Shown here: piece after piece, positions 3,512 to 63,639 of the stretch
Position numbering within the stretch: the first letter of the stretch is position 1
Layout of the letters: each line of letters starts with the position of its first letter
NCBI GenBank assembly: GCA_015179125.1
Contig: WHVA01000171.1
Location: 1-64,000, forward strand
From: Gautieria morchelliformis
Lineage: Eukaryota > Basidiomycota > Agaricomycetes > Gomphales > Gomphaceae
Reading direction: 5' to 3'
Length of the DNA stretch: 64,000 bases
Program-made: the position numbers and the translations under genes
The notes under the pieces: model-generated
Told to the model about the DNA's origin: nothing
Databases searched by the model: none
Seen by the model: only the letters and a program-made list of their open reading frames with translations

Positions 3512-3524
3512 CGCCCCCTCAAGC

Positions 3525-7779: not shown

Positions 7780-7781
7780 CT

Positions 7782-17773: not shown

Positions 17774-18332
17774 TGGCACTGGCGACGCCGTAGTAGGTAC
17801 TACATTGACCGTACCTTGCAACGGTTGTTCGGGAGGAATCTATGTGCTCAGCTCGACGACTTGGTCTATCGATCGCTTTGTTTGGACACACAGTGCTGCG
17901 TGTTATACTAGCAGGTATTCATGTATATATACTAGTCGGTCACCCTGCGATAAGACGTTTGAAAAAGTGTATTTATATACTGACACCGGGTACTAATCGC
18001 TAATTGATAATTGATAATCCATTAGTATCTGTAAATATTTCCCTTTTCTTGATCCAGCCAGCTAGAATGATCGTAATACCTAGGTCTTTCCCCGCAAATC
18101 GCTTTGGCACATGCCTTGTAACTAGCATCCCCTCTCATCCATTGTATCTCTGGTGCGTGATGCACGCAGCGATGTTACCTGGATACTCATTCTTTTTTTT
18201 TTATCGCAAGGATACCTACAATAACTGTTGAAATAATTTTAGTTGGTTTGTCGTTACAAGAGCTATCCAATCGAAACCGTGGATGTTCACATATGAGCAC
18301 AATATACTGGTTGCGTTGGTCAGAGACGGCAG

Positions 18333-19235
18333 CGGGGAGTGGGGGCGGCGGCGGTGCTGTACAGGAGGGGAAGACGGGTGGGAACCCTGAGGCATTACCT
18401 AGGAAAGGCGGAGGAACACACGGTCTACAAGGCTGAGCTGGTCGGAATGCTTCTAGGGATGGAGCTACTGAGAGGGGAACGGGCGTCCAGAGGCATGACG
18501 ATAGGGCTTGACAGTCAGGCTGCGATCAAGGCCACCGACCTCTCCAGGCCCGCCCCAAGCCACTACCTGGTGGACGCGGTGCACGATGAGGCGGATGCGC
18601 TGTCCCACCGACACCCGGGAGCGGGACTGCAAGTCCGGTGGGTCCCGGGGCACTCCCGGATCCCTGGGAACGAACTCGCCGATGCAGAAGCAAAAAAGGC
18701 AGCCCAGGGGGAGGCCAGCGTGCCCGGAGACCTACCCACAATCCTGCGCCGTCCCCTACCGACCAGCACCGCAGCCCTGTGGAAAACATACAAGGCTAGG
18801 GCCAGGGCGCAGAACGCGGAGAGATTCCAGAGCTCGCCGAGATACGCGAAGCTCAGCCTGATCGACCCCACCGTCCCCTCATCCAAATTCCGCAGACTGG
18901 TGAACCCCCTCAGCAGACGCCGCGCGAGCATCATGGTGCAGTTACGCACCGGCCACGCGCCCCTGAACGCGCACTTGCACAGGATTGGGAAATGGGAGAC
19001 CCCCACATGCCCGGCATGCCTGAGGGGCGCAGAGACAGTATTCCACTTCCTCATGAGATGCCCCGCGCACGAGCCCCACCGCCGCGCCCTCCGCAGCGCC
19101 CTCCCTCGAGACGCGCCCTCCCTCCCTGCCCTGCTGTCTGACCCGAACGCCACAAAGCACTTGCTGAAGTATGTTGATGCCACGGGCCGCTTCAAAGCGG
19201 CCGCCGGGAGGGGAAACCGGACGGGAGACAGCTAG
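18333..19235 (+). pseudogene. LINE E RNase H and C-terminal zinc-knuckle region
   Basis: Open frame ending at 19235. It encodes an RNase H fold: GAAAVLYRRGRRVG near the first Asp position; the glutamate strand VYKAELVGMLLGMELL; the aspartate in TIGLDSQAAIKA; and WVPGHSRIPGNELADAEAKKAA, which carries the His/Asp motif. It continues into the LINE C-terminal domain with LRTGHAPLNAHLHRIGK, CPACLRGAETVFHFLMRCPAH and KYVDATGRFK. RT and endonuclease are absent through 5' truncation at insertion, so it cannot act alone. The visible frame has no stop, suggesting a fairly young copy. Confidence 0.88.
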
Positions 19236-19364
19236 CTTAGCCAGACCCCTACCTACCACTTCCACGCGTAAGCTCTCCACGCGAGACTCGCCCCACCGTA
19301 CCACCGGTCTATGATTAGCATCCCCACACCATGTACAGAAGCAGTAGATGTGACGGCTGTGTAT

Positions 19365-19395
19365 TATCTTACATAGGGCTACGCCCCAATAGATA
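19365..19395 (+). other. LINE 3'-terminal hairpin
   Basis: TATCT pairs with AGATA, enclosing ACATA-like unpaired bases and an inner GGGC-TAC-GCCC stem-loop followed by CAAT. It lies just before the A-rich tail. The same architecture recurs at 27138-27166, 54220-54252 and 63563-63593. Confidence 0.85.
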
Positions 19396-20137
19396 CAAAT
19401 GGATTTTTTTTAAAAAAAAAACAAAAAGATGGCAGCTGGGCTTTATATGCAGTTCATTTTTACCTGGGAGTGCTCAAGTGATTTATTGCATTCCACATGC
19501 CACCAAAGCGGCGTGCCTATGGACAACTTGACCTTCTTGATTCAACCCTGCACAGGGAGCTATTGCATTTACGTGAGCGTTCTCAAACGTGTCAAGAATT
19601 GCGATCTTATCGCAAACTTGCTATGATCATTAGCTGGAGGATCACCCTGGTAGGATATTGTGTGAGTTCAACTGCCCCTTATTTTGTCATAGGTTATGCT
19701 TTTATTTTAGGGCACACATCTGGTTCTCAACTTGCGCTCGGAGGCGTTCAACGGAGAAGCTTTACAGCAACTCTTATGTAAGTCCCATGGCAAGTACCTG
19801 CAGTTTTACCGTTCAACGGCCATCAGAGGACTCCAGTATAACACGAGAAGCTGATCATCACTGTCATCAGTGATACACGGGTGAATTAAGGGTGACAGAT
19901 AGGGCCAATATACCCAAGCTCAGTGCCTTCTTCTTCAAGTCGCGTCGGGAACGCTCGAGAACGTCAACCGAAGTTGAGCTAATATTTTCAATTCAGTTGA
20001 GCTAGTATCTATTGGTAGCAAAAACACTCTACAGAAGAGCTACATTAGACTAGAGTACTGCTTTAATTCCCAGCACTGCCAGGGCCCAGTGGCACCTACT
20101 CAGATAACTGCTTGAAGACTTGAAGTCGTGAACACAT

Positions 20138-25724: not shown

Positions 25725-27137
25725 GCTTCTTTGATGTTAGTATGTCATTTAAGACATGATCCAGGTTGAAGTTGAGATAGAGGGTGACCCCCCTGATGGA
25801 CATCCAAGTGTGGCCACTTGCTCGGATTGCTGGTGTGCAGCAATCACTGATACACTCAAGGGCATGTACAATGCTTGTGAGGAGACAGGTGTCTTTGTAT
25901 AAGTTTGTCGGCATGGCTTCAGTTGGACAATTGTGGACATGATAAGAAGTGGCGAACTGTGCATATGATCTATCTATATTGTGTTATATTATTCACTAAC
26001 ACAGGCATCAGGGCAAAATACCCATTGGCCACCATAGATAGGTTGCTATCAGTGCTCCCTCCAGGTCTTGAGCTTGGTTATGACATTGCTTGCTCCTTTG
26101 CCATGACACTGAGGCAGAGTTCGCTTGGTAAGAGGCCACAGATGACTGGGCTGCGCATGGTAGTCCCTCCATTCCATGGGCATGCACATAACATATTTTG
26201 CCAGCTAGGTTTTCACATTCTTATGTCTCAAGGGTTCGGCTTGGAGGACCTGGAAACATGTGAACACGTGTTTTTGGCTTCAAATAGTGTTACTCAGCTC
26301 ACACGGCATGCAACCCAGTTCCATCGCCGGCAGTTCATTGACATGTTCTTCTGCCAATGTGATGCGGAAAAGTATAAGCACCTGGGTAAGACAGGCTTTA
26401 AATTGTGGATAGCAGGCACTCATTCGCACTTTAGGTCAGTTTTTGCTTAACAACTACAAGCAGGTGTTAGAAATACTTTGTGATACACCTGTCCACATCC
26501 AAAGCCTGCTTCCAGGATGGCACATATCAGATGCACAGTTCTCAACATGGCTTCAAGAAGAACACAAATATCTCAACTCAAAGAAAAGCAAACCAGAAAA
26601 GGATATCTTAGCTACTCAGTACGTTGGATTACTCAGCAAACATGAAGAAGCCCACAGTCTCTGGGAGTCCTCTCAAAAGCTCGCAGCGCAAGCAAACCCG
26701 GGCTACCGATCAGGCACGTTTGTGCCAGGTCACCCACGATGCATGGGAGGGTGTGGTTTTCCTTCAGAAGGAACTTGAGCAGGTTGAGGAAAAATTAGAC
26801 ATAGGCACACAATGGACACCCGAACAGCCTGAATACCAGCGTGCAGCTGATTATATCCATACCTGCAAGTTTCAAGTTGCAGTTGACAAGCTTGAGGGGC
26901 TCGTTGTGCAGTGGCTATTTGAACTAACAAAGGCAAATGTATCACAGACAGGTATGGACATTGAGACACTGCATCCTGGCATCCTACTAATCTACAAAAG
27001 GCTACAAGATGCGCATGCATATATCCAAGGCACTACAGAGTAGATCGAAAGCAATCCAACGAGCATTGAAGGTGTACAATGATGCAGCTCTCACCCTTTT
27101 TTTTTTTTTTTTTTTTTTTTTTTCATATCCAATTATG

Positions 27138-27166
27138 TCTTTTGGGGCCATGCCCTATGTAAGATG
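27138..27166 (-). other. LINE 3'-terminal hairpin
   Basis: On the minus strand, TCTT pairs with AAGA around ACATA and an inner GGGC-ATG-GCCC stem-loop followed by CAA. It is the same arrangement as at 19365-19395. Confidence 0.8.
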
Positions 27167-27316
27167 ATGCATACAAAGGTTCTGTCAACATGATTATTCT
27201 GTCTAGTCTATATCATCTATCTCCGCATGCACTCTGCGGACTTTGTCCCAAGCTTGTCCGTGCCTTTATGAAAGCGAGGTAAAGTTCTCTGTGCTGCACA
27301 CAGGTTGGTCCGCGTT

Positions 27317-29969
27317 TTAGTTTCCTTCCTCTGGCAGCGATACGTCCCCGAAATTTTGTCGAAATCTCCCTGTGGAATTTATGTATTGGAAGAGGGCTTC
27401 CATGGCCTTTGGTTTTGTCAGCAGCACTCCAAGCGATCTAGCTCCCCTCCTCAGCCTCCTCTCCAGTGGTTTTCTTTGTTCGCTATATGCCAGACACTGT
27501 AACAGGAAGTGGTGTACTGTTTCATCGTCACTGAGGCAGGCCACACAAGTGGGTGAATCGGCTTTTCCTATTTTGAACAAATGCTTCGCGAGTGGTATGT
27601 GAGCCATTCTAAGTTGAACTGGCAGTGAGCTGTGCCTTTGTGTCATGCTGCTGATCAGCTTCATGTATGCTGCCGAAGGCATTGATCAGTCGATTCTGCA
27701 CACGTATTGGGCCCTCGGAGATTTGGCGAACTCCTCCCTGGCCTGTGCTTTCAGCTCCTTGTGATATCTTTGCAATTCTGCCGCCTTGCTGATAGGCATC
27801 TCCCCCAGGCAAACCCTCAAGCCGCTCATATTTTCTGTGGACTCACCTCTCGCAGCTCTCTTGGCTTCTGTGTCTGCCTGCTCGTTCCCCTCTACTCCCT
27901 CGTGTCCCGGTATCCACCGCATCATTACTGTTGTCTTCCTTCCCCTTTCTCTCTTTATGGCCTCCATCTGCTCGTGTATTGCATTTACCAGGTATTGTCC
28001 TGATATCGCCCGCTCTTCCCTGGTCGTCTGTATCGTGACCTGGTTGTCTAGCCCCAGTGTGTGCTCTCTGCATCCTTCCTCCCTAATCATCCAGTCCCCC
28101 ATCGCCCCACCGAGTAACTCAGCTTAGAAAACAGTGTGTTCTTCTTCCGTTCCCATATATTTCCTGCTGACCCTCTTGACCATCTCCCCTCTGCACAACA
28201 CCGCCGTGGCCCCTACCCCTCCCTCGATTATCGACCCATAAACCTTCACCTCTGCTCTGTCCCCCGCTGCTAATTCTTCTGCTTCCTTCTTGTCCGCTGG
28301 TATGTTCGCCTCGAATGCTGGCTTCCATTTGGGGCCTCACCTTACCATTTCAATCATCTCCATCCGCTGTGGCTGCAGGTCGAAGGCATGTATTATTTCA
28401 TGGAGCAAGGATCTGTGCCTTTTGACATATCTGCGCGCGGCTTTCTTCACATGTGTTGTTAGGGGATGCTGTGAGGACAAGCATGTCAGCCTGACTGCAG
28501 CTCGGTGGATGAGTTTGGAAACTAGTAGTGGGAACAGCAGCAAGTTTGCATGTGCCTCAGCTGTGTTGCTCGCTGTCGATCACATCGCTCCCGTGATTGC
28601 GAGTGCTGCTTGTCTCTGTACCCTCGCTAGCTTGGTAATATGCCCCTTGGTGCCTTTGGACCATTTGGACTCTGGAACTAGGAACGTGTCAGCCGCATAT
28701 AGCACCTTCAGTATTACGACCGCTAAATAAAACTGTCTCATGTGCTTAGCTGATACTCCCTTCACGGTCTTTGCGATCCTGCGGTATTGGTCCATGAGCT
28801 TGGTACCTTTCTGTAGTGCGTAGTTGACCTGATGCTTGAATCTCATTTCCTGATCCAGTATAATTCCTAGGTACTTGTGTATCTTGGTCGGCACGATCTC
28901 CTGGCTGCCAATCTTGATAGACGGTCTGGTGACCGGCTTGTCTTCCTTGTGCCCATCGGGTCTTTTTTGCGTTTCCTGGTAAATCCTATCAGCCCGAACT
29001 TGTCCAAACCAAACTGACACTCATGCTTAGCCGCCCAGTCCAGGGTTCCATCCTTCCTATGGACTATATCTTTTAGCTTTCCAAAAGCTTCCTCTATGTC
29101 CGCTCCCTCTGCCAGAATCGTCTGTCGTCGACGAACGCCACTGCATCTTTGCCGTCTGCCTTACTCACGACCTCGAGCAAATCCGAATTATAGAACTGAT
29201 ATGCTATGGCAGAGAGCGGGCATCCCTGATCCATGCCTCTCGGGATAGGTGTGGGCGGCGCGCAATGGTCATCGATTTTAAGTGTCGCTACTCGCCCTTT
29301 GACCTTGTTCCGGATCCATTCAGTGTACTCTTGCGGTACTCCCCTACAGCGCATGTTGTGTATCAGCCTACTTAGTATGATGCTAGGAAATACCCCCTTG
29401 ATATATAGGAATAGTGCCCCCATCACATTCCCTTTATGCCACGCATCCTTCGCCTTCGTTATCGTGTAGTGAATGGCATCCGTTGTCGTCCTTCCCTGTC
29501 TGCATCCGTAGTGGTTGTCTGGAAGCAGTTTGTGTTTTTCCGCCATCTTGCCTAGGTCTTCCGCCACGCATGATGACAGTACCTTTCCCAATGTATCTAG
29601 CAACACTATTGGCCGGTAAGCACCTGGTACGGTGTAGTCCCTTTTCCCGGGTTTCCGCAGTACCAATACTTCCGAGTCGCGCCATAGAGTGGGGTACATC
29701 TGTAGCGTGAATGTGGCTCTGAAAAGCAGCCTAATGTACGGTAATAGCTGATGGGCGCATTGCTTCAGCACCACATTGGGGATCCCATTGGCGCCCGGGG
29801 CGTTGAAGGGATTAGTGTGCTTGATCGCCCTCATTATCTGTTCGTCCGTTATCTCTTCGTAAGTGAAGGCTGGGGGAGGGTACTCGAAGTCGTGGGGAAT
29901 CTGTGCACTGTCGGTTTGCAGTGGTGGGAAGAAGGTCTCCATTAGCATATCTGCCTTCTTGTCATTCAT
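27317..29969 (-). pseudogene. LINE RT, RNase H and C-terminal domain, broken
   Basis: Read right to left: RT with NPFNAPGANGIPN (about 29800), RPIVLLDTLGKVLSS, LLPDNHYGCRQGRTTTD, motif A as LFLYIKGVFPS (near 29400) where related copies have YVDIKGAFPS, GMDQGCPLSAIAYQF, and motif C FVDD (near 29125). Then a connecting region (29020-28580), RNase H (EHTVF-stop-AELL, LGLDNQVTIQTT, WIPGHEGVEGNEQAD, 28300-27850), and the C-terminal CVACLSDDETVHHFLLQC segment ending at 27317. The catalytic Asp of motif A is replaced by Tyr, and frameshifts and a TAA break the frame. It is non-functional. Confidence 0.88.
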
Positions 29970-30490
29970 CGTCGGCTCTCACCCCTGACCCTCCACATCC
30001 CAAGCTCACTTGGTCACAAATTGTAGAATATATGACTCTCGTGGAATTTGAGCTCTTACGATCAGGAGCCCAGGATGACATCTGTAACCTGGATTGGGCA
30101 AAAGCCAGACATCGGGAAGCTGGTATTTGCCAGCTGAAAATCTTACGTGCGCAGGAGGAGCTTTAGAGGTTAAACATTGAGGTGAAATGCTTGGCGACCT
30201 GGTCATCAATGATGAGGCCAGTCTGGTTGCGGCAATTACAAAGTGTCAGGGTTCAAATCTGCTGCTTGCCAAGGCAATGATGGGTTTTACTGCCAAGCAG
30301 AAATGAGTGAACCGCCGTGTGCAAGCTACTCTGCACAACATATATGACCTTGATGGATACTTGGGTGGGCTGGTATTGGACACTGGGAGGCAGGAGATCA
30401 GGATGGGGTCAACAAAGATCTGGGCTCAGAACAGGACGAGGAAATAGATGATATGATCAATGATGTTTTTGAAGGGGTTATGAAGTTAAC

Positions 30491-42440: not shown

Positions 42441-42455
42441 GGTTATGGGCCCCGC
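42441..42455 (+). promoter_or_regulatory. copia 2 primer-binding site containing the gag ATG
   Basis: GGTTATGGGCCCCGC begins directly after the LTR. The ATG at 42445 starts the polyprotein (MGPAEPTTS). This is the same arrangement as copia 1. Confidence 0.8.
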
Positions 42456-45400: not shown

Positions 45401-46672
45401 CCACAGCAAAGCTCTCTGCTATCCGAATAATCGCAGCCATCGCAGTCCGGAACGACTGGGAACTCGAACAAACAGATATAGATGGCACGTACTTGAACGC
45501 ACCAATCACGGAGACCATATACATGCGACAGGCCAGGGGATATGAAGCCCCTGGAAATGAGCACAAGGTCTGCCGGCTCAACCGTGCGATATATGGGCTG
45601 AAGCAATCCGGTAGGGAATGGTACGACACGCTGCGCGGGTTCATGAACCAATTTGGGTTCACGCGCTGCGAGACGGAACACGCAGTCTTTCACAGGTATG
45701 CCGGACAGGACGCGCTTATCGTCGCGGTCGACGTAGACGACCTGACCATGGCCAGAAGCTCGAAGAGCGCAATCCTTGAATTCAAGAACGAGCTACGTAC
45801 GGTCCTCAAAATCAAGGACTTGGGCGACCTGCATTGGTTATTGGGTATAGAGGTGAAACGGGTGCGCGAGACGCGCACAATATCGTTCTCACAACCTGCT
45901 TACATCGAGAGAATTCTCGAAAGATTTGGTCTGCAAGATGCGAACGCCCTGAGCACGCCGCTCGACCCGCATCACAGGCTATCCCTATCCCAATCGCCCA
46001 CCACTCCTCGCGAACGCCAAGAAATGCATGCCGTACCATACAGGGAAGCTATCGGCTCACTCATGTACGCGGCTCTGGGCACACACCCTGACATTGCGTT
46101 CGCGGTGTCCTTCTTAGCTCAGTTCATGCAAGACCCTGGGAGGCCGCATTGGGAGGCGGTCAAACGCGTGTTTCGATACTTGAAGGGCACGAAGGACGTG
46201 GCCCTAACTATTGGCGGATATCGCAGGGGACTGGAAGCGTTTTCTGACGCTGACTGGGCATCACAAGAACACCGACACTCGATTTCGGGGTACGTATTCA
46301 CGATCGACGGAGGCGCTGTGTCTTGGAGTTCCAAGAAGCAGCCGATCGTCGCGTTGTCAACAACAGAGGTGGAATACGTCGCAGCGACTCATGCCGCGAA
46401 GGAGGCTTTGTGGATACGCGCCACTCAGCCAGCCCATCACCATCCACCTCGACAATCTCTCCGCGATATCTATCACAAAGAACGACGAGTATCACCCGAG
46501 GACCAAGCATATCGATATACGGTATCATTTCATACGCCATGCGGTACAAAGACAGCTACTGTACATCGACTACGTACCAACAGATGACATGGCAGCCGAC
46601 ATATTCACTAAAGCCCTCCCCCGACACAAGGTTTTACACCTGACCGCCCTCCTTGGTCTACGTTCGGCTTAA
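42445..46672 (+). pseudogene. copia 2 Gag-Pol polyprotein, two stops and one frameshift
   Basis: One frame from 42445 with TAG at 43108-43110 and TGA at 44845-44847, then a frameshift near 46416-46425 caused by a small deletion; the RNase H end continues in another frame to the stop at 46672. Domains: Gag (VPKLARDGTNWVTWKSQ); CCHC knuckle CWKCGKKGHLKADC; protease VYDSGASGHMSP; GAG-pre-integrase LHRRMGHIS; integrase with SDVWGP, TDRGGEY and EENGVSERLNRT; RT with QTDIDGTYLNA and AVDVDDLTMA; RNase H with FSDADWASQ and STTEVEYVA; and a C-terminal MAADIFTKALPRHK. TGA at 44845 fits CGA to TGA. Without repair no Pol is made. Confidence 0.93.
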
Positions 46673-46679
46673 GGGGGAG

Positions 46680-46996
46680 TGTTGGAGTCAGGGTCGGTAA
46701 GCGGAGAACGCAGGGCCAAGTAGGTTAGGGGGAAGGATTTATCATTGTATAGTAAAATAGTATTACTGGCCTCGGTCAAGTATGACCGAGGCCCTATATC
46801 TACTCGCTCCACAATTGCTAACCCCTCAGTGAACTGACCGTTCACTGAGGTACGTGCCCCCATCCCATTATGTATCCTAATGGTATACTTACTGTCATGT
46901 AGGCTTCATACTATTAGGTAGAGTACTTATATACACTCAGTGAACTGACCGTTCACTGAGGCTTCATACTATTAGATACTGCGCATAACCGCTACA
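46680..46996 (+). repeat. copia 2 3' LTR
   Basis: 317 bp, matching the 5' LTR with one C/T difference. It is preceded by the purine tract AAGGGGGAG and followed by TSD TGTAA. Confidence 0.95.
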
Positions 46997-50914: not shown

Positions 50915-51078
50915 TTAACTTCATATGGAGGAGAACTTTCTCATGCCTACCACAACATCCAAAACACCAAAAGCCACTTTTTTCACCAAACACACTATAT
51001 ATACACCCAACTGGTGTATCGCTGGCAACAGTCAGCGACTACACACAGCTTCTGCAAAAAGAAGCGACCCAAAAATTG

Positions 51079-52641
51079 ATGCCACTGAGCGTCGACCCCC
51101 AAGTGCTGGCCACCTCACAGGGCCGCACAAGAGCGAGCAACACTCAGCAGCCCAGTAGTAAGGCAAGAGCTGAATTGCTAGCAGAGCCGAATGTGTCAGT
51201 GCGAACCAGAGAACAAGTGAGGCAATACCTCGATAGATACAGGTACCTCGCAAAGGACGACCCCTTGTCGATGGAGCAGCTCAGTTACGCCCTGCTATCC
51301 CTAACACACAACGCAAGTGGAAAGACCTTACAGGAAGGGGCCAGGGCGGTGGCAATACTCATGCTGGAGGAAGCGGCGAAGGCAGTGGGGGTAGCGATGA
51401 AGCAGCATGTCGAGAGGTGGAGGTGGCGATAGACGATGCCAAGGCGGCCACAGATATCACACAGGAGACCGCAGGGGACACTAGCAACCTAGTGGAGCAT
51501 CTGAACAGCATGGGCAGGTTGAGGGAGCAGGAAGCAAGAAGCGGGCAAGGGTTGCACTCAAGGATAACGTACCATCGTCACATCCCAATAATCTGGCAAA
51601 GAAAAGAAGAGAGCGAGGCAGATACTGATAGACACTTGGCGATCTCATGGAGCGGGAGTTGGTAGCCAAGGCGAACGAGGCCGTCGGCAACCTATAAGAG
51701 AATCATGACTCGGTCAACATAGCCTTCATCGGGGCAAAGAAGCTAGAGGGTGGGATCATGTTCAATCTAGACACGGAGGAGGCAGCAAAGTGGATCCAAC
51801 AAAACAAAAAGGGCTTTCTTAGCAAGTTCAGTGGCATGGCCACAATCAAGGACAGGGCTCTAGCTGTGATAGTCAAATATGTGCCTTTGGGACATGCGCC
51901 TGATGCACTCGCAGAGATGAGAAAAATAGAGTGAGATTCAAAATTACCTGCCGGATCTCTGCTATTGACCTGTTGGATAAAGCCCATACACAGAAGGACA
52001 CTGGGTCAGAAGTCAGCTCACATTATCGCAAAGTTCGCCACCGCCGAGGCTGCGAACTAAAGCATCAGAGATGGATTAATCATCGCCGGCAAGAGGATGT
52101 GGGCCGGAAGGATGAAGATAGAGCCACACTGCTGCCTGAAGTGCCAAAGATACAACACACAGCACATAGCAGTGGATTGCACCAGTCAGGAGATGTGCGG
52201 GATGGAGCATAGGATGGCAGATTGCGAAGAGAGCGACCCACAAAGATTCAAGTGCGCGAACTGTAACGTGCACGGGCACGCCTCGTAGGACAGAACGTGC
52301 CTGGTCTTCAGGGTAGCATGCATGGTGGTGGAGAAACGCGAACCCGAGCACACATTTAGGTTCTTCCTGAACGAGAGTCCGTGGACATGGGAACAACAAC
52401 AGGCGGCAGAAGATGTTGAGGATGCAGGTGATATACTCAGGAGAGCCAGCGCTAGAGAGGACAGGAGAGGGGGAGCAGAGGGGGCGAGAGTTCGCATTGA
52501 ACAGCAAATGGACCATGATGACAAAGAGGGATCACAGTGTAGAGAGGACGGCCCCCAGGACAGGGGGAGGCTGGAATACAGAGGAAGCGTGCCGGGAGAC
52601 AAGAGAAGAGCCAATCCCCAAGTGGGACATAGGGATCCAGG
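51079..52641 (+). pseudogene. LINE ORF1 (zinc-knuckle RNA-binding protein)
   Basis: Starts near 51079 (MPLSVDPQVLATSQG); an alternative start, MPTTTSKTPKATFF, lies near 50943 in another frame. It has a helical Ala/Glu-rich region (EQVRQYLDRYRYLAKDDPLS), several frame changes, then tandem CCHC-like knuckles at about 52132-52300: CLKCQRYNTQHIAVDC, CGMEHRMADC and CANCNVHGHAS followed by a stop before DRTC. ORF1 of this LINE group binds its RNA. The frame is broken in several places and then interrupted by D copy 4 with TSD CCAGG; the ORF1/ORF2 junction continues after 54362. Confidence 0.75.
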
Positions 52642-53860
52642 TGTCAAGATTGGTTTTCAGGCGTTAATATCGTGTATTAGTGAACACAGCGAATGCCCGA
52701 ATAACTTGTGCGAATAAGTATGCCGTTTGGCAAATAGGTGAACCAATGAATGTTCACAAGGTAAGAGAGTTGCCCGAACGGGGCGGGGCTCACCCTATCT
52801 ACAGTCGTAGTGAAATAGCCCGTGGCCCTTGACGATGTGACGTGCAAGGTCTCACGGAAGGGCTGTCTAAGTCTCGACAATCCCTTTGCTGGAGAAGGTG
52901 CTCCTTCGGAGCCCTTCGCCAACAGCGCAGAAAATGGTTCAAAGGCTAAGGTAACGAGGATGAAGTATGAGAACTCACCAGTGGCGCCTAAGTCCTCTGC
53001 TAGTCGAAGATGGAGATCTCCAAGAGAAGGCTTAAGATGATGGCCACAGAGAGGTCAAATTTGCACAAGGTGAACGACATATGATAATTGAACTGGGAAA
53101 TATACATGCGAATGTAAACTACTTATATCGAATGCTCGTAAGGTATCAGCCAATAGGAAAGAGGCCGTCACAAGTCAGGGTTGGATAGGGGTGCGCAGTC
53201 ATGATACAACATAGATGAAACAAACATACAATAGAATGTGAGAAGAGGAGAACATGAAATGACGGAGAGTAAAGGTGGTGAAGGCACTTATGGACAAAAC
53301 CATGTCTTGGGACCCGCATACATGCTACCCTGCATGGACTTTTGGTCTACTGGGTTGATCCCGCACGACCTATGGAAGGGATGTCCTGCGAACACACTTT
53401 GACCATACGAACGCCCAATGGGGTTGGATTTAAGAAGACGATGGGGTTGATGATGAACCATCATGCCGGGTGAATGGTATCGATCATATTTGATGGTGTG
53501 CCTGCTGGCGAATGATGCGAGCAGCGAATGGCCGTTCAGCAAAATGCAAGGAAGGGCGAACAGAGGTGACATAGGGGAGGAGAGGTCGAGGTGGAGGGTG
53601 AAGCCGAGTGAACACTGAGGAGGAGTAGTGAAAGGGGGAATGGTGATAACAAGGTGCAGGAAATACACAGGTCATGACAATCCAATTACCAGAACACCAT
53701 CGGAAGAGGGTCGAGCAGAGGAGGTGGGAGACCCAGCGATGACTGCCATGTCAGTCCAAAGACGTTGATTGTGCGTTTGACGGCATGGCGATGGTAATTG
53801 GCACGAACAGCGAGCATCGATAGCCAAACATGACAATGGCGATCGGAACGAACACGGAAG

Positions 53861-53895
53861 GGTGTGGGTTAGCACAGGTGGAACTAACCCACACC
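53861..53895 (+). other. 12-bp perfect hairpin at the SINE head
   Basis: GGTGTGGGTTAG and CTAACCCACACC are perfect inverted repeats separated by 11 bases that include most of the A box. Confidence 0.8.
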
Positions 53896-54219
53896 AAGCG
53901 CCCGTTTGGGATAATGCGAAGGGAGAGCCTCTGGTTCGAATCCCCCCCCTCCACATTTGTAGCAGTAATTACTACAATGTTTCGCCCCACTGATAGGTGT
54001 TGACAAATGTTAGGATTACGAGGCTCCTGGAGTTCCATACGGCATATAAGACCTACTGAAACTGACCGGTACTGTTATGTATCTAAGGTGATTAGGCATT
54101 GTAAAACAAACAGGAAGTATCCTATGTTGGTGCCAGCATATCTCTGGCTTACTTTGGTAACTACGATACCCTAGCATGTAAAACACTTTGATTACTCTAT
54201 TCCATGTTCCGGGTAGAGA

Positions 54220-54252
54220 CTGCCTATATAGGGCACCGCCCCAAGGTGGCAG
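54220..54252 (+). other. SINE 3'-terminal hairpin matching the LINE hairpins
   Basis: CTGCC pairs with GGCAG around TATATA and an inner GGGC-ACC-GCCC stem-loop followed by CAA. This is the same plan as the LINE tails, with a different outer stem sequence. Confidence 0.8.
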
Positions 54253-54508
54253 TATAATAAACGGAATTCAAAAAAAAAAAAAAAAAGAAAACGACCATGG
54301 AAATGGGGTGAGAAATGGCAGGACAGAGCACCTGAGTATGAGGAATAAACACGTCATGACACCAGGGTGGCAAAGACGGGAGCCTGGAGGAGGCAGGCAG
54401 AGCCGGCTAGATGACTACGGAATCGGGAGCAGCCGCAAGCGGACATAAGGGAGAGATGGAAACACAGATGACAATGACCCACACCGAGGATGAATGGGGA
54501 CAAGCCGG

Positions 54509-54653
54509 CAGATCACAAAACTAAGGGTTAGACAACAGAATGTCAATAAATCGCTGACTGCGACATCGGAAATACTAGCTAAGTGCTCACCTGACCATTA
54601 TGACATCCTTGCCATCCAAGAACCACACATTGACTTCCTAGGCAACACCAGGG
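54509..54653 (+). pseudogene. LINE endonuclease, N-terminal piece
   Basis: Encodes LRVRQQNVNKSLTATSEILA and HYDILAIQEPHIDFLGNTRA. This is the start of an apurinic-like (exonuclease-endonuclease-phosphatase) domain with the Asn of QQNVNKS and the catalytic Glu of QEPH. It stops at the repeat-bounded insertion at 54654 and resumes near 57470. Confidence 0.85.
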
Positions 54654-57470
54654 CTGTTGTTATAATACGAGGAGGAAGATGGAGAGAGACAAAGGCTGGA
54701 ACAGAACTCGGTGCGCTGAGTGCAGAAACAGATGGAACTCGAGTGTTAGCTAACTCTAGCTGTAACACTAAACAGAGCTGCAGTGCAGCTGAAAGGGCTG
54801 AAACCGATGGATTTGTTGTAACTACTGAGCTAGCTACTTATACGTATGGATGCATATGTGAGTGCTCGGTCAGGGGACTGCGGAGTGGGAACTAAATAGG
54901 AGTATCCTAAAGCGGATAGTCCTGGGAAAATGCTGGTTCACGACACAGGCAGCGCTGACATAGTAAAGAGATGAACTACGTCCAATCGTGCTCACGGCCC
55001 CCACTCACTCCCTTACATCTTTCACGCCTCTATACACATCCCTTGTGACTCCTAGATGCTGTCCCAACCTCTAGGGTCCTGTTCCGCACACTCTGCATCG
55101 CCGCCGCCGCCGATTCTTCACCGGCTCTCATCCAATCCGCGCAGCAATGCCTCTAACCCCTCTCCATATGTCCAGCGCTGCAACTGCTGCTGTTCCACAG
55201 CCTACACAGCTGCTGCTCTCTTTTCCAGCATCACCGTGGCCTTCACACGCAGTTCCAATGCAGCCGGTAGCCTCCGCACTATGTCCTTGCCTGTGTCCGC
55301 CCCATACGCCTCTGCACCGCACGCTGACTCCCCCTCCACCCTACTTGTTCGCCAACTTCTTTCTATGATACGATGACCCGATTACGCGCGCTCTTGCTGT
55401 CACTGACGCCGTCCTTCCATATCGGCCGCACATCATTTTCCTTATCTTCAACACATCACTTAACGATCTAGTTTCATTCGTGCAAACCTCATCAAAACCT
55501 CATGCTTTGGAGTCGATCAGGTTTGAAGGGGTGTGTTGTAAACTGGTTGCGCACCCAGCGCGGCTTAGGTGGCTTCTGGAAAAGTAATGGAGGTAAAGAA
55601 TAGAATTCAATGGGGAAAACCATTCTGGATGAAAAAGCGATGGCAAAGTCGTAGAAATGAACGGCCAGGAGGCCGGTATCAATGTAGATCGAGGTGGAGC
55701 GGTTGGGTGCCTGAGCAGGGTGGCATGCCCGGTGCAAGCCATGATCGCAAGATATGAAGGCTGCACGGCCGGCGTGGCTTACGCGTCGAAAGGAGGGTCT
55801 GGGAGCTTCTGAGCAATTCCAGAGACGAATATGCACCCCTTGAAATGGGTGCTGTCATCCGCGCTGTCCTGGAACGATCTGGAGCGCGGATATGACGATG
55901 GATGGCATTGAGCGGCGTATGAAGCTTGTACACCGCCCAGGAATGTCTAGAGATATCTTGAGAGTCCCTAGAAACGAATACAAAGCCCTGTGGGCTTGTA
56001 GGAAGGTCGAAGCTCCTTTTGAGTGAGCTTGCCAGTGGATGTGAGTCCAGCGGCATCGGCGGTGTTGACGGCGAGCGGATGGCATAGCACACCTCGTACG
56101 ACGTCGGATCGGTGTCAGGGATATGGTGATGTACTGCGTAACATACCCCTGGGTGTCCTGCATGTCCAACGCTCGATGGTGCGTCGGTTTTGCACGTAGA
56201 CGGGTGCGCCGGCGATGTGTGGCACAATGGAAGTGGGACAGCTCCCTTTGAAATGTGGCTGGGTCTAAGGCGACAAATGGGGGCCGCAATGGTTGCTTGA
56301 TACATGAAGGGTGCTGAGGCTTGAGATGATGAGCGAGTTCAATGTGGCAGGCGACGAGGAACTAGTGGTCGGGCTTGGTAAACGACGGGCATGGGGTCGT
56401 TTGGATAGTTGTACGGTGAACATGTACGGTGCTTGAATAGAACTCGTAGAATAACAGTGTGGTCATAAAGGTAGCTCAACGTCAGTGAGACCTTGAGACT
56501 CTTAATCTGTTGTTATAATGCGAGGAGGAAGACGGAGAGAGACGAAGGCTGGAACAGAACTCGGTGCGCTGAGCGCAGAAACAGATGGAACTCGAGTGTT
56601 AGCTAACTCTAGCTCTAACACTAAACAGAGCTGCAGTGCAGCTGAAAGGGCTGAAACTGATGGATTTGTTGTAACTACTGAGCTAGCTACTTATACGTAT
56701 GGATGCATATGTGAGTGCTCGGTCAGGGGACTGCGGAGTGGGAACTAGATAGGAGTATCCTAAAGCGGATAGTCCTGGGAAAATGCTGGTTCACGACACA
56801 GGCAGCGCTGACATAGTAAAGAGATGAACTAATATATACCAGTTTACAACAAGGGCCACTCCTAGTTGGTACTTGGTGTACCCGGAGACCCACTTCCAAG
56901 ACAAAGAGAAGCGGATAAGATCAATGATACTAGTAAGCAAGGGAGGATAATCACAATGGTTATGTAATACAGCATATATGAGTATATAATATATACTATA
57001 AGAGTATTAATAAGGAGAATAATAGATGTTATTAGATGATTCTGTATATATTTAAACATCTCGAAGATATATATACATATGAGAGAGTATTAGACTACAA
57101 GATAGAGTAACAGATACTTGGAGAGATACTTGTAACAGATATGAGTAGGAGTATTAGTATGACTAGTTATAATGAGAGAGTATTAGACTAGCATATGGAG
57201 TAATAGTAGTTGTGTAGATATTTGTAATATATATGAATAGTTATAATGATATAGTGTATATTAAAAGTGGGTAGAAAAAATAAGAAGAGGGGTAAAAATA
57301 AGAATGGGCATTCTCGTTGGCGGAGCCTCCGCTCGAGGAGGGACAAAAGAAAATTTATTTATATCCCAACAATAAGATTGGCATGTACTTTCGTCCTCTT
57401 CTTTTCTATAATTTGAGAATAAAATGGGTGAAGCTACAGGTAATAAAAAGTTGTGAGCATCTGCGAAGAG
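54654..57470. other. unclassified insertion bounded in part by 325-bp direct repeats
   Basis: Interrupts the LINE endonuclease. Two 325-bp direct repeats (54654-54978 and 56507-56831) begin CTGTTGTTATAAT and end GATGAACTA and differ at about ten positions. The 1.5-kb interior holds no recognisable domain. After the second repeat comes an AT-rich stretch with imperfect repeats of gagagagtattagacta (about 57080-57200). No TG...CA ends, PBS, PPT or TSD was found. About 100 bp of the LINE appears to be missing at this site. Confidence 0.6.
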
Positions 57471-57479
57471 AATCGCAAT

Positions 57480-58208
57480 GGGCATGTGGAAAGTGATGGA
57501 AATAGGGATGCCGGATGTCACAGCAATAAAAATCAAAAGTGAACATGGGTGACGTGCTCGTTATAAATATCTACGCCGACTGCACACAATCTAACAGTAT
57601 AAGAGCCATACAGGAATACGTACAGAGAAGCGTGGCAGACGAAAGAACACACGGACAGGAGGTAGCAGGCATAGTATGGCTGGGTGATTTCAACAGGCAT
57701 CATCCGATGTGGGACAAGCTGCGGAACTCACACCTGTTTACCAGAGCCAACCTGGATGAGGCGCAGGTACTGTTGGATGCAATTGCAGACCACAACTTGC
57801 ACATGGCGCTGCCAAAGGACACACCCACACTCAGAGCAATGGCGACTGGAAATTACACTCACACAGATAATGTATTCATTTCCTCTTCATTGATAGAGAG
57901 CTTAGTCAGTTGTAAAGCAGTACCAGAAGATTGACCCCCCAAAAGCAATCACTTCCCAGTTGACACCCTCCTCGATGTCACTGTCATGGCAAGCGCTCAG
58001 GTTCCCGAGCTAAACTACAGACAAGGTGACTGGAAGGAGTACAGCAAGCAGCTCAGAACGAGGCTCAGGGAAGTAATCAGCGAACCAACCCCAGTTACCC
58101 CACAACACTTCCACCACCTCCTGCATGCACTAACAGAGGCCATAGCGGTCACCACTGAAGAGCTGGTACCAAAGAGCAAGCCGTCATCCTATGTGAAGCA
58201 CTGGTGGT
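57480..58208 (+). pseudogene. LINE endonuclease, C-terminal piece
   Basis: Resumes with MPDVTAIKIKSEHG. One extra base follows, then DVLVINIYADC, the catalytic segment WLGDFNRHHPMWD (about 57678-57716), and the C-terminal motif region near TDNVFISSS where a YTHTDNVF stands in for the usual SxID. Stops at 57932 and 58208 are followed by continuing linker sequence. It would nick target DNA to prime reverse transcription. Confidence 0.82.
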
Positions 58209-58897
58209 AATTACAGCTAACGCGCACCAGAGCTGAAACCAGGCGGCTGGGCAGGAGAGCCTACGCAAGGTGCAACAATCCAACTGACGCAGCGCATGAG
58301 GCGTACAGGACTGCAAGAAACAAGTATGCAGAGGCCATCGAGAAATTGAAAAAAGATCACTGGAAAGATTTCCTCGATGGCATATACCAGAGGACAATCT
58401 GGACAGCACATAGGTATGCCTCAGCGGATGCATCTGATGGGGGGCGGGCATGCATCCCGACACTAATGATGGTACAACCAAACCGGACGCGACTGGTCAC
58501 AGAGACAAATGATCAGAAAGCTGACTTTTGGACACATTCTTCCCAAAGCCGAACACCAACGCTGAGAGCATTCCATCAGATTATGAGTACCCAACCCCGG
58601 CCTTTGAGTATGAACCAATATCCGACACACAGATATGCAGGGCTGTAGACAAACTCAACCCATTCAAAGCCCCGGGGGAGAACGGTATCCCAAACATACT
58701 CATTAAACAGTGTATTGATGTACTCCTGCCTTACATAGGACCCCTCTACCGAGCCACGTTTGAGCTCGGGACTTACCCGGAAGAGTGGAGGGACTCAATC
58801 ACGAGAGTTCTCCGCAAACCAGGGAAAGCCTACTACACGGTGCCCAGTGCATATAGACCCATAGCACTGCTGGATACGATGGGCAAGGTACTATCGG

Positions 58898-59590
58898 TGT
58901 TACGTATCGAGATTTCCACTAAGTCGGAACTGGAAAGGACAGCGGCTTCAACTTATAGGTTGCGCCCCCAATGAACTATCGTCCTAGGTATTTCGGAAAT
59001 GAGCCGGAAGCCGGAAAGTACTGGACCAGAGGTTTGGTCGGAACTTGAGTCGGAACTGAGGCGGAAGGCGGAAGACGGAAGGCTGAGAGAGAGACTGAGA
59101 TCTTGCTAGACTCGCTGTGCTAAGAACAGGAGATGGAGCGAAGGAAATCAAGTATCGAAGGTGATTATCTGATTGCAGAATAACAGACATACATGAGGGG
59201 GTTTTATACAAAGCGCAGAGCAACAAGTAATGGTGTTGTACTAAGCAAATTCCGGAGGAAGCGGAAGTCGAGTACAATGTGTGGGAACTAACTAATTGGG
59301 AACAATGGGACTACAAGGGGGGTTCAGGGTAAGGTAGAACAATGGCAAAGAACAAGGGGTCGGGAAAACATATCTGACAACGAACTACAAGGGTGACCGG
59401 ATATATGGTTTTGATGGATGGCGAGGTGGGTCCGGTGGGTCCGAGTAATAGAGTCGAAAGAACAAGGGAAATGTACAAGGGGCGGAATGTCGGAAATGTC
59501 GGAGGGGCGGAACGTTGTGGCGGAACTATTGGAGAGGCGGAATGTATGGCGGAACTGAGGGTCGGAAGTCGGAAATGAACGGTTGTAACA
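58898..59590. mobile_element. B-family solo LTR, intact
   Basis: 693 bp, TGTTACGTATCGAG to CGGTTGTAACA, with TSD ATCGG at 58893-58897 and 59591-59595. It is inserted in the LINE RT between GKVLS and CVGED. It serves as the reference copy for 9694-10951. Confidence 0.95.
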
Positions 59591-59780
59591 ATCGGCTTGC
59601 GTGGGGGAGGATTTGGTGAAGATGACTGAGAGGTATTGCTTGCTGCCTGACAATCATTTTGGCTGCAGGCCGGGGCGGACAACTACAGACGTGGTACACT
59701 ATCTGCCAAAAGACACATGGAGGAGAGGAAAAGTAATGGGAGTGCTGTATGTCGACATCAAGGGAGCTTTCCCAAGCATT

Positions 59781-60270
59781 TGTAAGGGCAACCCTGGCTG
59801 GTTGTGGAGATCACACTACCACACAACTGACAAGGGGAAATCCAAAGTATGTATAAATGAACAGAGCATACAAGAGAGGGGATTCTCACCTGACAAGGGG
59901 AAATCCAAAGAGAAAAGTCTAAGGACCCCCAATGTCAGCGAGCCTGTATTATACTACGCTGCCCAGCCAGGGACAACACTTGGCACCTGCCATCAACCCT
60001 GCATCTCCCCGACCACCCTGACCCTTGATCGACCCTTGATGCCACCTATTACGCGAGTCGCTTGATTTCCGACACTGTTCCGAGAGTAGAAGTCAGAAAT
60101 TGGAGTGGAACTGGCGAGGCGAACAGAACTGGTGGAAGTTCTCCCAGAAGCAGAATCATTTCCGAAAGCGGAGGCGGAGATGGAATCGGAACCGGAAGCG
60201 GAGTCGGAAATGGAGTCGGAACTGGGTGTGGTGTCGGAACTGGAAATGGAAAACAGGGTGTCCCCTGACA
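59781..60270 (+). mobile_element. X-family solo LTR, intact
   Basis: 490 bp, TGTAAGGGCAACC to TCCCCTGACA, with TSD GCATT at 59776-59780 and 60271-60275. It is inserted between the motif A region and LDRL of the LINE RT. It contains a run of GGA-rich hexamer-like repeats (60090-60260) and two copies of CTGACAAGGGGAAATCCAAAG. Confidence 0.93.
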
Positions 60271-61283
60271 GCATTATCCTGGACAGACTCACTCACAATA
60301 TGTGCAGATGAGGGGTACCAATTGAGTACACTGACTGGGTATGCAGAAAAGTCCAGAACAGACTCACAACAATCAGCTTCGATGATCACACTTCCGTGAC
60401 CAGGCCGATAGGGTGCAGCATGGACCAAGGGTGCCACTTGTCTGCCATTGCCTACCAGTTCTACAATGGGGACCTGCTGGACATAGGGCAGAGGAAAAAG
60501 GGGGAGGGCAGTGTAGGCTTTGCGGATGACACAACCATCATAGTGGAAGGGGTCGACTTCGAGGAAGCTTTCAACAAGCTGACGGACATAATGACCAGAC
60601 CTGATGGGGCATGCAGCTGGGCCGCAAGGCACGATTTCCAGTTCGCAATGGATAAGTTCGGGCTAATGGGGCTTAGCAGATGCAGGGAGAAGGACCCCAC
60701 GAAGATGAGCGAAACCAGATCGGTGACCAAGCCATCGATAAAAATTGGCCTGCATGTTATAGAACCTACAGCGACACACAAGCTCCTGGGGGTGTTCATA
60801 GACCAGGAGCTCAGATTCAAGGAACACACAAACTATGCGCTGAAGAAGGGCGAAGCATACATTGGCCAATACTGGAGGAGGTTGGCAAGGCCGACCAAGG
60901 GAATTATAGCTAAGCATATGAGAACTTATTACCTGACTGTGGCAGTTCCAAAATTGCTATACGCTGCTGATGTGTTTCTCGTGCCAGCAAGCAAACGGGG
61001 CAAGGGGACCAAGGGAAAAATAAACGAGCTAGCATGGATACAAAGGCAAGCGGCACTGGACATTACAGGAGCCCTCAGGACCATGGCCACAGACACACTC
61101 GAAGCGCATGCCAATCACATGCCATTCATGCTGCTGGTGGCCAAGCTGGTACACAGAGCAGCAGTGAGGCTTGCCTGCCTACCAGATGGCCACCCAATCG
61201 CAGCAAAAGTGAAGAAAGCAGAAAAAGATACGTACAGCATCATCGGTCGCCGCTTCATGAGATCCTGCATGCTTATGGGCTGA

Positions 61284-62520
61284 ACAGGATGGAAAAGATC
61301 CAAACCATCGTATTCGGGGCCAAGTGGGTTCCGGCCTTTAGCACATGGCTCCTGCGTGACAAGGAGCAGGCAATTGAGCAGATTGAGGCAGAAAGGGCAG
61401 AAGTAGTCGTCTTCTTGGACGGGTCATGCCTGGAAGGCAGAATAGGAGCGGCAGCCGTACTATACAGAAATGGGAGGGAGCAGAAGTCGGTGCGACTGCA
61501 CATGGGGTTGGAAAGTGAATACACGATGTTTGAGGCAGAGTTGGCAGGGGCGGCCATGGCAGCCAAAATGTTACATGCGGAGAGTGTTGGGTGCATTTAT
61601 GCTCCTGCACCAAAATCAAGCATAATGTATTCGATTTATTGTATGGTGTTTCAATCTCTTCTCACATTGTTCTTGTACCATGCATTCATTTCTCTGATTA
61701 TTTTCGAAAATTTCCAGTCACTCTCTACCTCTCCATTTCATTTTGTTATCTCTATTTTCACAGGTGGCTGCACCCAGCGGAGTTTGAAATGACTTCGACG
61801 CGCGAGCTCTTGAGCGCTAAAGGGCCGGGTGCACGTATATGCCTTCTGAGACAGGATAGTGCTCCTCTCTCAGTGACAATAAATTCACTGAGAGAGGCGA
61901 GTAGTATTCCTTGTATTTTCATAGCATGTTGACTGAAAATCATGTAGTCAATTTGATTCTAGGTATTGTATTAATATAACAGTGACAATAAATTCACTGA
62001 GAGAGTGAATTTGATTCTATCTTTCTAAGAACTCTACCGAACCTTCCCTGCCATAACCCCAAGTTGCTGACAGAGAGGAGTGACAGCTACGTAGTAGCCC
62101 TGGACAGCCAGGCGGTGATCCGGACAACCAGAAGGGAGAGTGCCATACCCAGGCAGTATCTGGTCAACGCAGTACACAGACAAATCCAGGGTGTTGTCGA
62201 GCAGCAGGTGGGAGCGAGTGTGGTGAGGAGATGGGTACCAGGACACGAGGGGGTAAAAGGAAACGAGAGGGCGGATGTAGGGGCGAAGAAGGGAGCGATG
62301 GGAGAGACCAGTGATGAGTGGGAAATACCGATAGAGTGCCGGGGAGTTCTGCCGATAAGCAGAGTGGCTGAGACGCAGAGACACAACACGGAACTGAAGC
62401 AGCAGGTGCAGGCAGCATTTGCTAAGTCACCCAGGGCACAGTTTGCGCTCGAAATTGACCCTAATATAAATCAGATTAAGGGGTTGGAGTCGAGTGGTTA
62501 ATAGTATGATAGAAAGCTCA
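61284..62520 (+). pseudogene. LINE RNase H, split by a solo LTR
   Basis: First part to 61584: VVFLDGSCLEGRIGAAAVLY and YTMFEAELAGAAMAAKMLHA (61405-61580). After the solo LTR with TSD GAGAG it resumes at 62073 with VVALDSQAVIRTTRRES, VVRRWVPGHEGVKGNERADV and AKSPRAQF to 62456. The D, E, D and H/D motifs of RNase H are all present. The frame beyond 62462 is element sequence, so the stop at 62502 is not native. It would degrade the RNA strand after reverse transcription. Confidence 0.85.
61585..62072 (+). mobile_element. copia 1-family solo LTR
   Basis: 488 bp, TGTTGGGTGC to TTGCTGACA, with TSD GAGAG at 61580-61584 and 62073-62077. The joined LINE codons read H-A-E-R-S-D, showing precise insertion into RNase H. 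Confidence 0.95.
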
Positions 62521-63026
62521 AGCAGTGTTCTGGTGAGAGATAAAAGCAATGTTCTAGAGTTCTAGAATTAAGCAATGTTCTTAGTGCAAGAGGTGAGGAG
62601 GAAACAATAATTATCCAAAGATGCTTATGACTCGAAGCTCTAAGGAAAAAGACTGTTAAGTCGCTTCTTTATTCGTATCTAAAGTCCAAGTATTTAAACA
62701 ATGCACAATAGGAGTAGATAGTCATGTGAAAAATAATGGGGCTAGGAGTTAGTGTCAAGATGATGTCAAGTATGATGCTATGACCCCTAAATGGCTAATT
62801 CCTGGACAGATGATGTCAAATATGATGTCAGGCATATAGGACAAGGATTCGACTCGATAATATGTGGAAAATGATATGCATATGTGCACCTCGACTCGAC
62901 TCGACTCGAAATAATTCTCGGCTTGGAATGGTTCTCGGAATGACAAGAAATATGGTGAAAAGTGAGAATGATTGATAACAAAATAGATTGTTCTGACTGA
63001 AATGTTTTCTTCCTCCTCAAATAACA
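62462..63026 (-). mobile_element. 565-bp LTR-like insertion (family I)
   Basis: Flanked by GACCC at 62457-62461 and 63027-63031. On the minus strand it starts TGTTATTTGAGG and ends ...TTATATTA, so one end is TG and the other TA instead of CA. LINE homology stops and resumes exactly at the GACCC copies (EIDP before, DPTMPSAAF after). No coding region. Confidence 0.7.
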
Positions 63027-63031
63027 GACCC

Positions 63032-63412
63032 CACTATGCCATCTGCAGCTTTCTAAAAAATAACCAAGAACATACCACGAAAACACACAAGTATGCTCAT
63101 ACAGCTCAGAACAGGGCACATAGCGCTAAACAAACATATGTACAAGATAGGCAAAGTGGACTGGCCGATGTGTCCCGCATGAATGTACCAGAAACCATCC
63201 ACCATTATCTGTTTCGATGTCCAGCCTACAGCGGGCCTAGGAAGAGGATGGAGAAGAGTCTTAAAAGGGGGGCTAAATTGGTGAAGACACTCTTAGGCAG
63301 GCACAGAGCCATGGAGCACCTGTTAAGATACGTGCATGAAACAGGGTGGTTCGAAAACTCCTGCGGGGACATGACACTTCTGAAGGAAACACGAGCGGGA
63401 AACAGGGCATGA
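63032..63412 (+). pseudogene. LINE C-terminal zinc-knuckle-like domain
   Basis: Continuation of the LINE after the 565-bp insertion: MPSAAF then a stop, NIPRKHTSMLIQLRTGH, KHMYKIGKVDWPMCPA, and after a frameshift VPETIHHYLFRCPAYSGPRK and MEHLLRYVHETGWFENSCGD, to the stop at 63412. It matches the end of the LINE at 27317-27682. The C-x2-C...H...C pattern is typical of this LINE group. Confidence 0.8.
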
Positions 63413-63562
63413 GATGGGGCAAGCAGAGGAGTCATGAACGAGAGAATGCACACACCCAGCCCAAACAGGCTTGGACATACCCAGGGCCATGCCCAAGGGG
63501 TACAAGCTGAGAAAGAGGTTGAGAGGCAAGAAGGAAACAATCTAAGACAAACATGTACACAC

Positions 63563-63593
63563 CATCTTACATAGGGCGCGGCCCCAAAAGATG
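63563..63593 (+). other. LINE 3'-terminal hairpin
   Basis: CATCTT pairs with AAGATG around ACATA and an inner GGGC-GCG-GCCC stem-loop followed by CAA, about 10 bases before the poly(A) tail. Confidence 0.85.
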
Positions 63594-63639
63594 ATAAATT
63601 GGAAAAAAAAAAAAAAAAAAAACTTCATATGGAGAGTCA

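Follow-up and report, generated by a model that had tools for sequence, protein, structure and literature searches.

Pairings of short interspersed elements (SINEs) with long interspersed elements (LINEs) that have similar 3' ends have been described in several lineages, including fungi. The available text of one study lists Mg-SINE with MgL/MGR583 in Magnaporthe and SINE2-1_BG with Tad1-24_BG in Blumeria; it also describes maize and sorghum SINEs and monocot L1 LINEs whose last 45 nucleotides (nt) are conserved and form a hairpin with compensatory changes, with a monocot L1 lineage diverging by 0.144 in these 45 nt compared with 0.570 overall, and it names SART1 and plant or algal L1 as cases of stringent recognition combined with poly(A) (PMC3747384). 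In Aspergillus fumigatus, according to the main text of a second study, the 3' end of AfuSINE2-1a resembles the 3' untranslated region (3'UTR) of I-1_AF, a Tad-clade LINE (PMC5063351). For the stringent-type L2 LINEs UnaL2, ZfL2-1 and ZfL2-2, the available text of a third reports that the ORF2 protein needs a 3' stem-loop and that removal of this stem-loop from zebrafish L2 abolishes retrotransposition; the loop matters above all, and the stem also matters, and in zebrafish L2 the tail is bound by the part of the protein that lies between endonuclease and reverse transcriptase (PMC4176376). Here we describe a hairpin at the 3' ends of three LINEs and one SINE in a 64-kb stretch of DNA from the basidiomycete Gautieria morchelliformis (contig WHVA01000171.1, positions 1 to 64,000, forward strand; the window). 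We consider it likely that these elements represent a stringent-type LINE/SINE pair whose reverse transcriptase recognizes the tail hairpin.

When the four 3' ends in the window are compared, a two-part hairpin is apparent close to each A-tail (~15-25 nt upstream). The letters common to all four tails are (C/T)ATAGGGC-NNN-GCCCCAA, and these lie within a longer hairpin. The elements and their hairpins are:

18297..19425, plus strand: LINE1, 3' part of a third LINE lineage, with RNase H, a zf-RVT-like region below the Pfam cut-off, the tail and an A-rich end
19365..19395, plus strand: LINE1 3' hairpin, TATCT / GGGC-TAC-GCCC / AGATA, with an extra U.U in the outer stem
27097..29974, minus strand: LINE2, 5'-truncated, with a reverse transcriptase domain and 10-bp flanking repeats GCTCTCACCC at 27087 and 29975
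27138..27166, minus strand: LINE2 3' hairpin, TCTT / GGGC-ATG-GCCC / AAGA, the next pair being A.C
50931..63620, plus strand: LINE3, full-length retrotransposon without long terminal repeats (LTRs), in pieces through later insertions, with reverse transcriptase and RNase H fragments
63563..63593, plus strand: LINE3 3' hairpin, CATCTT / GGGC-GCG-GCCC / AAGATG
52642..54361, plus strand: solo-LTR-like host of the SINE, TGTCA...TGACA, with a 5-bp duplication CCAGG, inserted in LINE3
53859..54286, plus strand: SINE with A-tail (body of 410 bp, 53859-54268), with an imperfect 12-nt flanking repeat (10/12, by eye)
53870..53881, plus strand: SINE A-box-like sequence TAGCACAGGTGG, read against the A-box consensus
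53933..53943, plus strand: SINE B box GGTTCGAATCC, read against the B-box consensus
54219..54253, plus strand: SINE 3' hairpin, outer stem ACTGCC (54219-54224) / GGCAGT (54248-54253)
54231-54234 and 54238-54241, plus strand: inner stem of the SINE 3' hairpin, GGGC / GCCC, with loop ACC
54206..54267, plus strand: SINE-only closing helix, GTTCCG (54206-54211) / CGGAAT (54262-54267)

A preliminary description of the window, made from its letters, had proposed both the shared hairpin and a nested arrangement of the elements, and both proposals hold. The SINE lies within the ~1.7-kb TG...CA element bounded by the CCAGG duplications, and that element lies within LINE3, which is flanked by the 14-nt sequence AACTTCATATGGAG at 50917-50930 and 63621-63634. 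The hairpin is present at all four tails, and a search of the 122-Mb source genome gave 580 places with its pattern TAGGGCNNNGCCCCAA, compared with 1 for the reversed pattern. Within the window, TATAGGGCNNNGCCCCAA with up to three mismatches gave 5 matches where 1.34 were expected, a count reached in 0 of 100 shuffles; four of the matches are the tails and the fifth, at 58954, is not at a tail. For GGGCNNNGCCC alone, with up to one mismatch, the 21 matches in the window were not above chance (18.1 expected; 21 reached in 23 of 100 shuffles), so it is the longer motif that is meaningful and not the short stem.

Tails were sampled from 90 of the first 100 listed TAGGGCNNNGCCCCAA places (30 loci of 3 kb and 60 of 301 bp), together with the window tails and SINE loci from separate SINE searches. 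Once duplicates had been taken out, along with tails truncated at the end of a locus and a single non-tail place, the sample comprised 77 LINE-type and 27 SINE tails. Two of the 3-kb loci are SINEs. Among the 28 others, LINE coding sequence stops 159-208 nt upstream of the tail in 18; a blast count of 20 was lowered to this figure by discounting L017, where the coding match belongs to the neighbouring copy L016, and L031, where it lies 1.2 kb off. The remaining 8 lack coding sequence, and we considered and rejected the idea that they are other SINE families with a LINE-type tail. Seven of them were compared with the sampled loci (L034 was too short), and those among the rows listed, which do not include L030 or L033, share their 3'UTR with LINEs; in the 600 bp preceding the non-SINE tails, as far as the sequence reached, there was no B box with fewer than two mismatches. 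These 8 loci are taken as truncated LINEs.

The LINE loci with coding sequence share ~44-71% protein identity with LINE L149 over stretches of at least 90 residues. L149 has RVT_1 and RNase_H domains above the Pfam cut-offs and Exo_endo_phos (E 1e-4) and zf-RVT domains just below theirs; its ORF1 has CCHC knuckles, recognized by eye, and no Pfam match. Judged by this architecture (ORF1 with zinc knuckles, followed by endonuclease, reverse transcriptase and RNase H), the LINEs are APE-type and Tad-like. The pieces of LINE3 match L149 from 50935 to 63621 at 77-87% identity (blastn), LINE2 has a DNA identity to it of only 64%, and LINE1 aligns with it in translation only; given these strong differences in likeness, it is apparent that divergent LINEs carry the common tail. 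The data also support the conclusion that this tail is far more conserved than the rest of the elements. Among 19 LINEs for which coding sequence and tail are both present, pairs differ on average by 0.394 in coding DNA, by 0.381 in the 3'UTR (the 110 bases before the tail) and by 0.135 in the tail arms, the last figure being drawn from the 15 arm letters that the search pattern left unfixed. These values cover 167 of 171 pairs (four were too short), with L017 and L031 dropped; when L031 is kept in they become 0.402, 0.401 and 0.136, respectively.

The SINE carries its own version of this tail, with outer stem ACTGCC/GGCAGT, TATATA replacing ACATA, and an internal loop that is three letters longer on its 3' side. 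These differences are what could be said for a SINE hairpin of independent origin that merely resembles the LINE tail. Against such convergence, the two tails have 14 letters in common (ATAGGGC and GCCCCAA), spaced by 3 nt in both and lying ~15-25 nt upstream of the A-tail, and a covariance model (R1) built from 71 LINE tails and no SINE, run on 56 of 129 collected sequences (230 kb), detects the SINE. It returned 25 matches to SINE tails at 23.5-25 bits (E 5.5e-4 to 1.5e-3), or 22 distinct places once three duplicates were removed; five more SINE tails, slightly changed, scored 13.4-15 bits, where the best non-tail match scored 14.1. For comparison, the LINE3 tail, which is included in the model, scored 62.9 bits. 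We therefore regard convergence as highly improbable. A search for a LINE partner with SINE-like letters found CTATATAGGGCNNNGCCCCAA at 71 places. Nineteen were read for this purpose, of which 18 are SINEs and one, L139, is LINE-type; the others were already in the sample, listed as SINEs, or unread. The tail of L139 (CCTATATAGGGCGCGGCCCCAAGGAC) reads CCTATATAGGGC-GCG-GCCCCAAGGAC and may be intermediate between the SINE and LINE types. Seven places have a different letter before TATATA, and the three that were read (L094, L148 and L169) are all LINE-type; CCTACATAGGGC occurs at 5 places in the genome.

A search with the SINE body only found at least 40 copies in the source genome, and the counts of retention refer to the 40 listed. 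The hairpin is kept in 38 of these (31 exactly, 7 with changes or additions of one or two letters) and missing from two, L210, whose 3' end is gone, and L215; SINE copies that lack the hairpin, which the preliminary description had held to be damaging to its proposal, are thus rare. One could suppose that the hairpin serves the RNA instead: in the LINE transcript it would act in forming the 3' end, in export or in stability, and the SINE would have acquired it along with the tail. It lies close upstream of the poly(A), a usual place for such elements, the SINE tail contains AATAAA, and conservation alone cannot separate a role of this kind from recognition by reverse transcriptase. A SINE with A and B boxes, however, is presumably transcribed by RNA polymerase III (Pol III) with a genome-encoded A-tail and would have no need of a Pol II 3' element, and yet the hairpin is kept in nearly all copies; we consider this explanation unlikely. 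Recognition could also be relaxed, with an enzyme that needs poly(A) only and a SINE tail that is a relic of its LINE 3' origin. The A-rich tracts in which the tails end suit this idea, as does L215, which is without the hairpin yet has an A-rich tail. A relic should decay like the sequence around it, whereas conservation of the LINE arms is about threefold that of their flanks. In SINE copies with identities as low as ~86%, which were partly chosen by the motif, the hairpin hardly varies except at CpG and loop sites. Relaxed recognition thus appears quite unlikely to us.

Both kinds of element carry marks of retroposition. Flanking duplications of at least 8 nt were found for 35 of 47 SINE copies, compared with 3 of 196 in a control with mismatched flanks; two of the 47 have common flanks. 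These two, L044 and L065, lie on different contigs, and may stem from duplication of a segment or from two haplotypes being present in the assembly. Duplications of at least 10 nt were found for 5 of 23 LINE copies, including LINE3 (14 nt) and LINE2 (10 nt), compared with 6 of 291 in the control. Besides its A-tail and target-site duplications, the SINE has the internal boxes of a Pol III promoter, the A-box-like TAGCACAGGTGG and B box GGTTCGAATCC. These boxes uphold part of the earlier label of a tRNA-derived SINE, and the tRNA-calling programs did not: ARAGORN made 0 tRNA calls in the window and in 27 loci, and Rfam gave no tRNA match with E up to 10 for the window SINE and 10 loci. Comparison with 40 of the 47 tRNA places showed weak similarity, the best z-score being 5.6 for the SINE consensus (tRNA-Glu) and 4.8 for the window copy (tRNA-Tyr), with 80 comparisons for each. 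A tRNA origin is thus suggested mainly by the A and B boxes together with this weak similarity.

Within the hairpin, variation is concentrated at the tip. Folded as 36-nt cores, the 77 LINE tails form the inner stem in 73 cases and the outer stem in 70 at minimum energy (mean z -2.5), the inner motif having been fixed by the search pattern. When the window tails were folded with longer flanks the z-scores were mixed (-3.7 for the SINE; -1.6, -0.3 and +0.2 for the LINEs), and the outer stem of the LINE tail at 19365 did not form in this fold. The LINE tails bear 27 different triloops, between sides GTCTTACATA and CAAAAGAC that are near-constant. SINE copies found by anchors outside the hairpin (36 of 39 of equal length) likewise show change almost entirely in the triloop, with 10 triloops among 36 tails and different loops in near-identical copies. 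A hypervariable SINE triloop was rejected, since CpG decay, subfamily descent and lack of constraint explain most of this change. When 27 full copies were placed on a tree, the loop sites showed 3, 5 and 6 changes, and the other sites with many changes are mostly CpG sites; the loop partly tracks subfamily (young copies have ACG and old ones CTT, with CCG as a further form), and some loop changes are not of the CpG kind. More generally, many of the most variable SINE sites lie at CpG dinucleotides and have changed from C to T or from G to A, a pattern that suggests methylation-linked decay.

From the letters, the tip of the hairpin seems free to vary, with the stem and inner bulge nearly fixed. 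We infer that the stem, the ACAUA bulge and the CAA side are the parts that are read and that the terminal triloop is unread. A more specific version of this idea is a "loop-blind" signal, in which the G+C stem and the fixed ACAUA/CAA internal loop are read, any triloop is tolerated and the main demand on the outer stem is pairing; we put it forward tentatively, as a possibility about which we have more doubt than confidence. If true, the signal would be common to LINEs that differ at ~40% of their coding letters, and many LINEs could mobilize the SINE, unlike the cognate-loop specificity reported for L2 LINEs.

A tail that LINEs and SINE have in common, that is conserved beyond its surroundings and that SINE copies retain is consistent with stringent-type recognition, as are the retroposition marks in both kinds of element. 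The hairpin would be the 3' recognition signal of an APE-type LINE superfamily. Since the SINE carries a version of the LINE tail, its RNA could be taken up and copied by the LINE-encoded ORF2 protein, which, by analogy with other stringent-type LINEs, would bind the tail, with target-primed reverse transcription starting in the poly(A) beside the hairpin.

Several results weigh against this proposal. The poly(A) is always near the hairpin, and poly(A) alone could be sufficient for a relaxed-type enzyme. L215 (G000:C481:31920-32060) lacks exactly the hairpin, from outer-stem base to base, and keeps its A-rich tail; reverse transcriptase may have skipped the stem, or the hairpin may have been deleted afterwards. 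The invariance of the inner stem in the LINE sample was imposed by the search pattern, and two LINE tails found by the model without a fixed pattern have GGGU-NNN-GCCC, a wobble. No LINE with the ACTGCC/GGCAGT stem of the SINE was found, the nearest being L139. We therefore suggest that the SINE is paired with the LINE superfamily and not with one particular LINE; of the SINE/LINE pair in the preliminary description, the tail shared with several divergent LINEs stands, and a particular partner with the SINE's stem did not emerge. Finally, the covariation of the outer stem, which that description took as a sign of selection on structure, does not exceed a phylogeny-aware null in the LINEs: in 500 simulated runs, the observed 20 double-changed cells were reached in 22%, the four covarying pairs in 5.6% and the count of paired cells in 7%. 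In 46 SINE tails (4 of 50 were left out for length) covariation was no greater than in shuffles.

The LINE set behind these figures comprised 71 tails (67 distinct), with 6 of the 77 left out for irregular or shortened stems, a choice that favours pairing. In it, 94.8% of cells pair, double changes occur in 4 of 6 outer pairs, and the 20 double-changed cells of the outer stem were reached by 0 of 500 column shuffles. By a corrected G-statistic over 903 column pairs, 15-41, 18-38 and 13-43 rank 8th, 10th and 17th, and the seven highest-ranking pairs all lie outside the structure. Genome-wide, C at position 15 has G as its partner in 6 places and A in 3, and T at position 15 has A in all of the 100 listed of 389 places; A at position 18 is paired with T in 13 of 13, and T stands opposite T 23 times. 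The six C-G copies belong, by eye, to one LINE lineage, and among the three C.A copies one, L150, is closely related to a copy with U-A (L121), the other two having no close relative in the sample. Seven of the 13 A-U places were read, being six of one lineage and one other (L159); U.U mismatches occur in several LINE lineages. Pairing of the LINE outer stem thus appears to have been restored often, in few independent events, and this, together with the null result in the SINE, makes the covariation argument suggestive only. The SINE closing helix GTTCCG/CGGAAT, considered as a further paired element, was rejected, having no covariation support and changes that follow CpG decay. The outer stems had been described as differing in sequence while still pairing. 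The double changes lend this weak support, and the SINE stem does differ; those of the LINEs differ less than implied, being mostly one sequence, GTCTT/AAGAC, with a U.U at 19365 and an A.C at 27166.

The window also contains other mobile elements. Whole or partial copies of a solo-LTR-like repeat of ~1.3 kb, 81-87% alike, lie at 24481-25724, 21481-23322 and 52642-54361, the last being the host of the SINE. Direct repeats of 300 bp that are 100% identical lie at 3023-8081 (spacing 4759) and 42124-46979 (4556 bp); they surround long reading frames, of Copia type by Pfam in the first pair, and look like recent LTR retrotransposon insertions. Fragments of KDZ transposases (Pfam PF18758), which are typical of basidiomycetes, were found at 25881-26447 (plus strand) and 32928-33782 (minus strand).

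The Gautieria tail provides a short signal of which a single genome holds hundreds of natural variants, so that what a LINE protein reads in an RNA tail (loop, stem or bulge) becomes directly testable outside animals and plants; the SINE may draw on many LINE lineages simultaneously instead of a single partner. We found no paper describing this tail in fungi among the titles and abstract openings searched, with subscription journals and Repbase reports falling outside the search. One study reportedly deals with a stem-loop conserved at the 3' ends of human L1 and Alu.

Among known systems, the Magnaporthe and Blumeria pairs are alike in joining a tRNA-type SINE to a fungal LINE through similar 3' ends; they come from other fungi, the comparison is with their description, and a fixed-stem, free-loop hairpin does not form part of that description in the available text (PMC3747384). 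AfuSINE2-1a likewise resembles, at its 3' end, the 3'UTR of a LINE from the Tad clade, and differs in ending in ACT repeats rather than poly(A) and in that the main text mentions no hairpin (PMC5063351). The monocot L1 elements and SINEs share with the present tails a hairpin and a similar contrast in conservation; they belong to another LINE clade and, as described in the text available, conserve the loop UCU over a stem that varies (PMC3747384), the opposite of the Gautieria tails, in which the triloop varies and the stem and internal loop are near-constant. In UnaL2, ZfL2-1 and ZfL2-2 the ORF2 protein needs the tail stem-loop, a need that we propose here by analogy, and recognition is mainly by the loop according to the available account (PMC4176376), whereas the loop here looks unconstrained on sequence alone. 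Fungal SINE/LINE pairs are thus already in print; what differs here is a variable terminal loop on a fixed stem and bulge, the many triloops of the LINE tails between near-constant sides being the reverse of both the plant case and the loop-reading L2 proteins.

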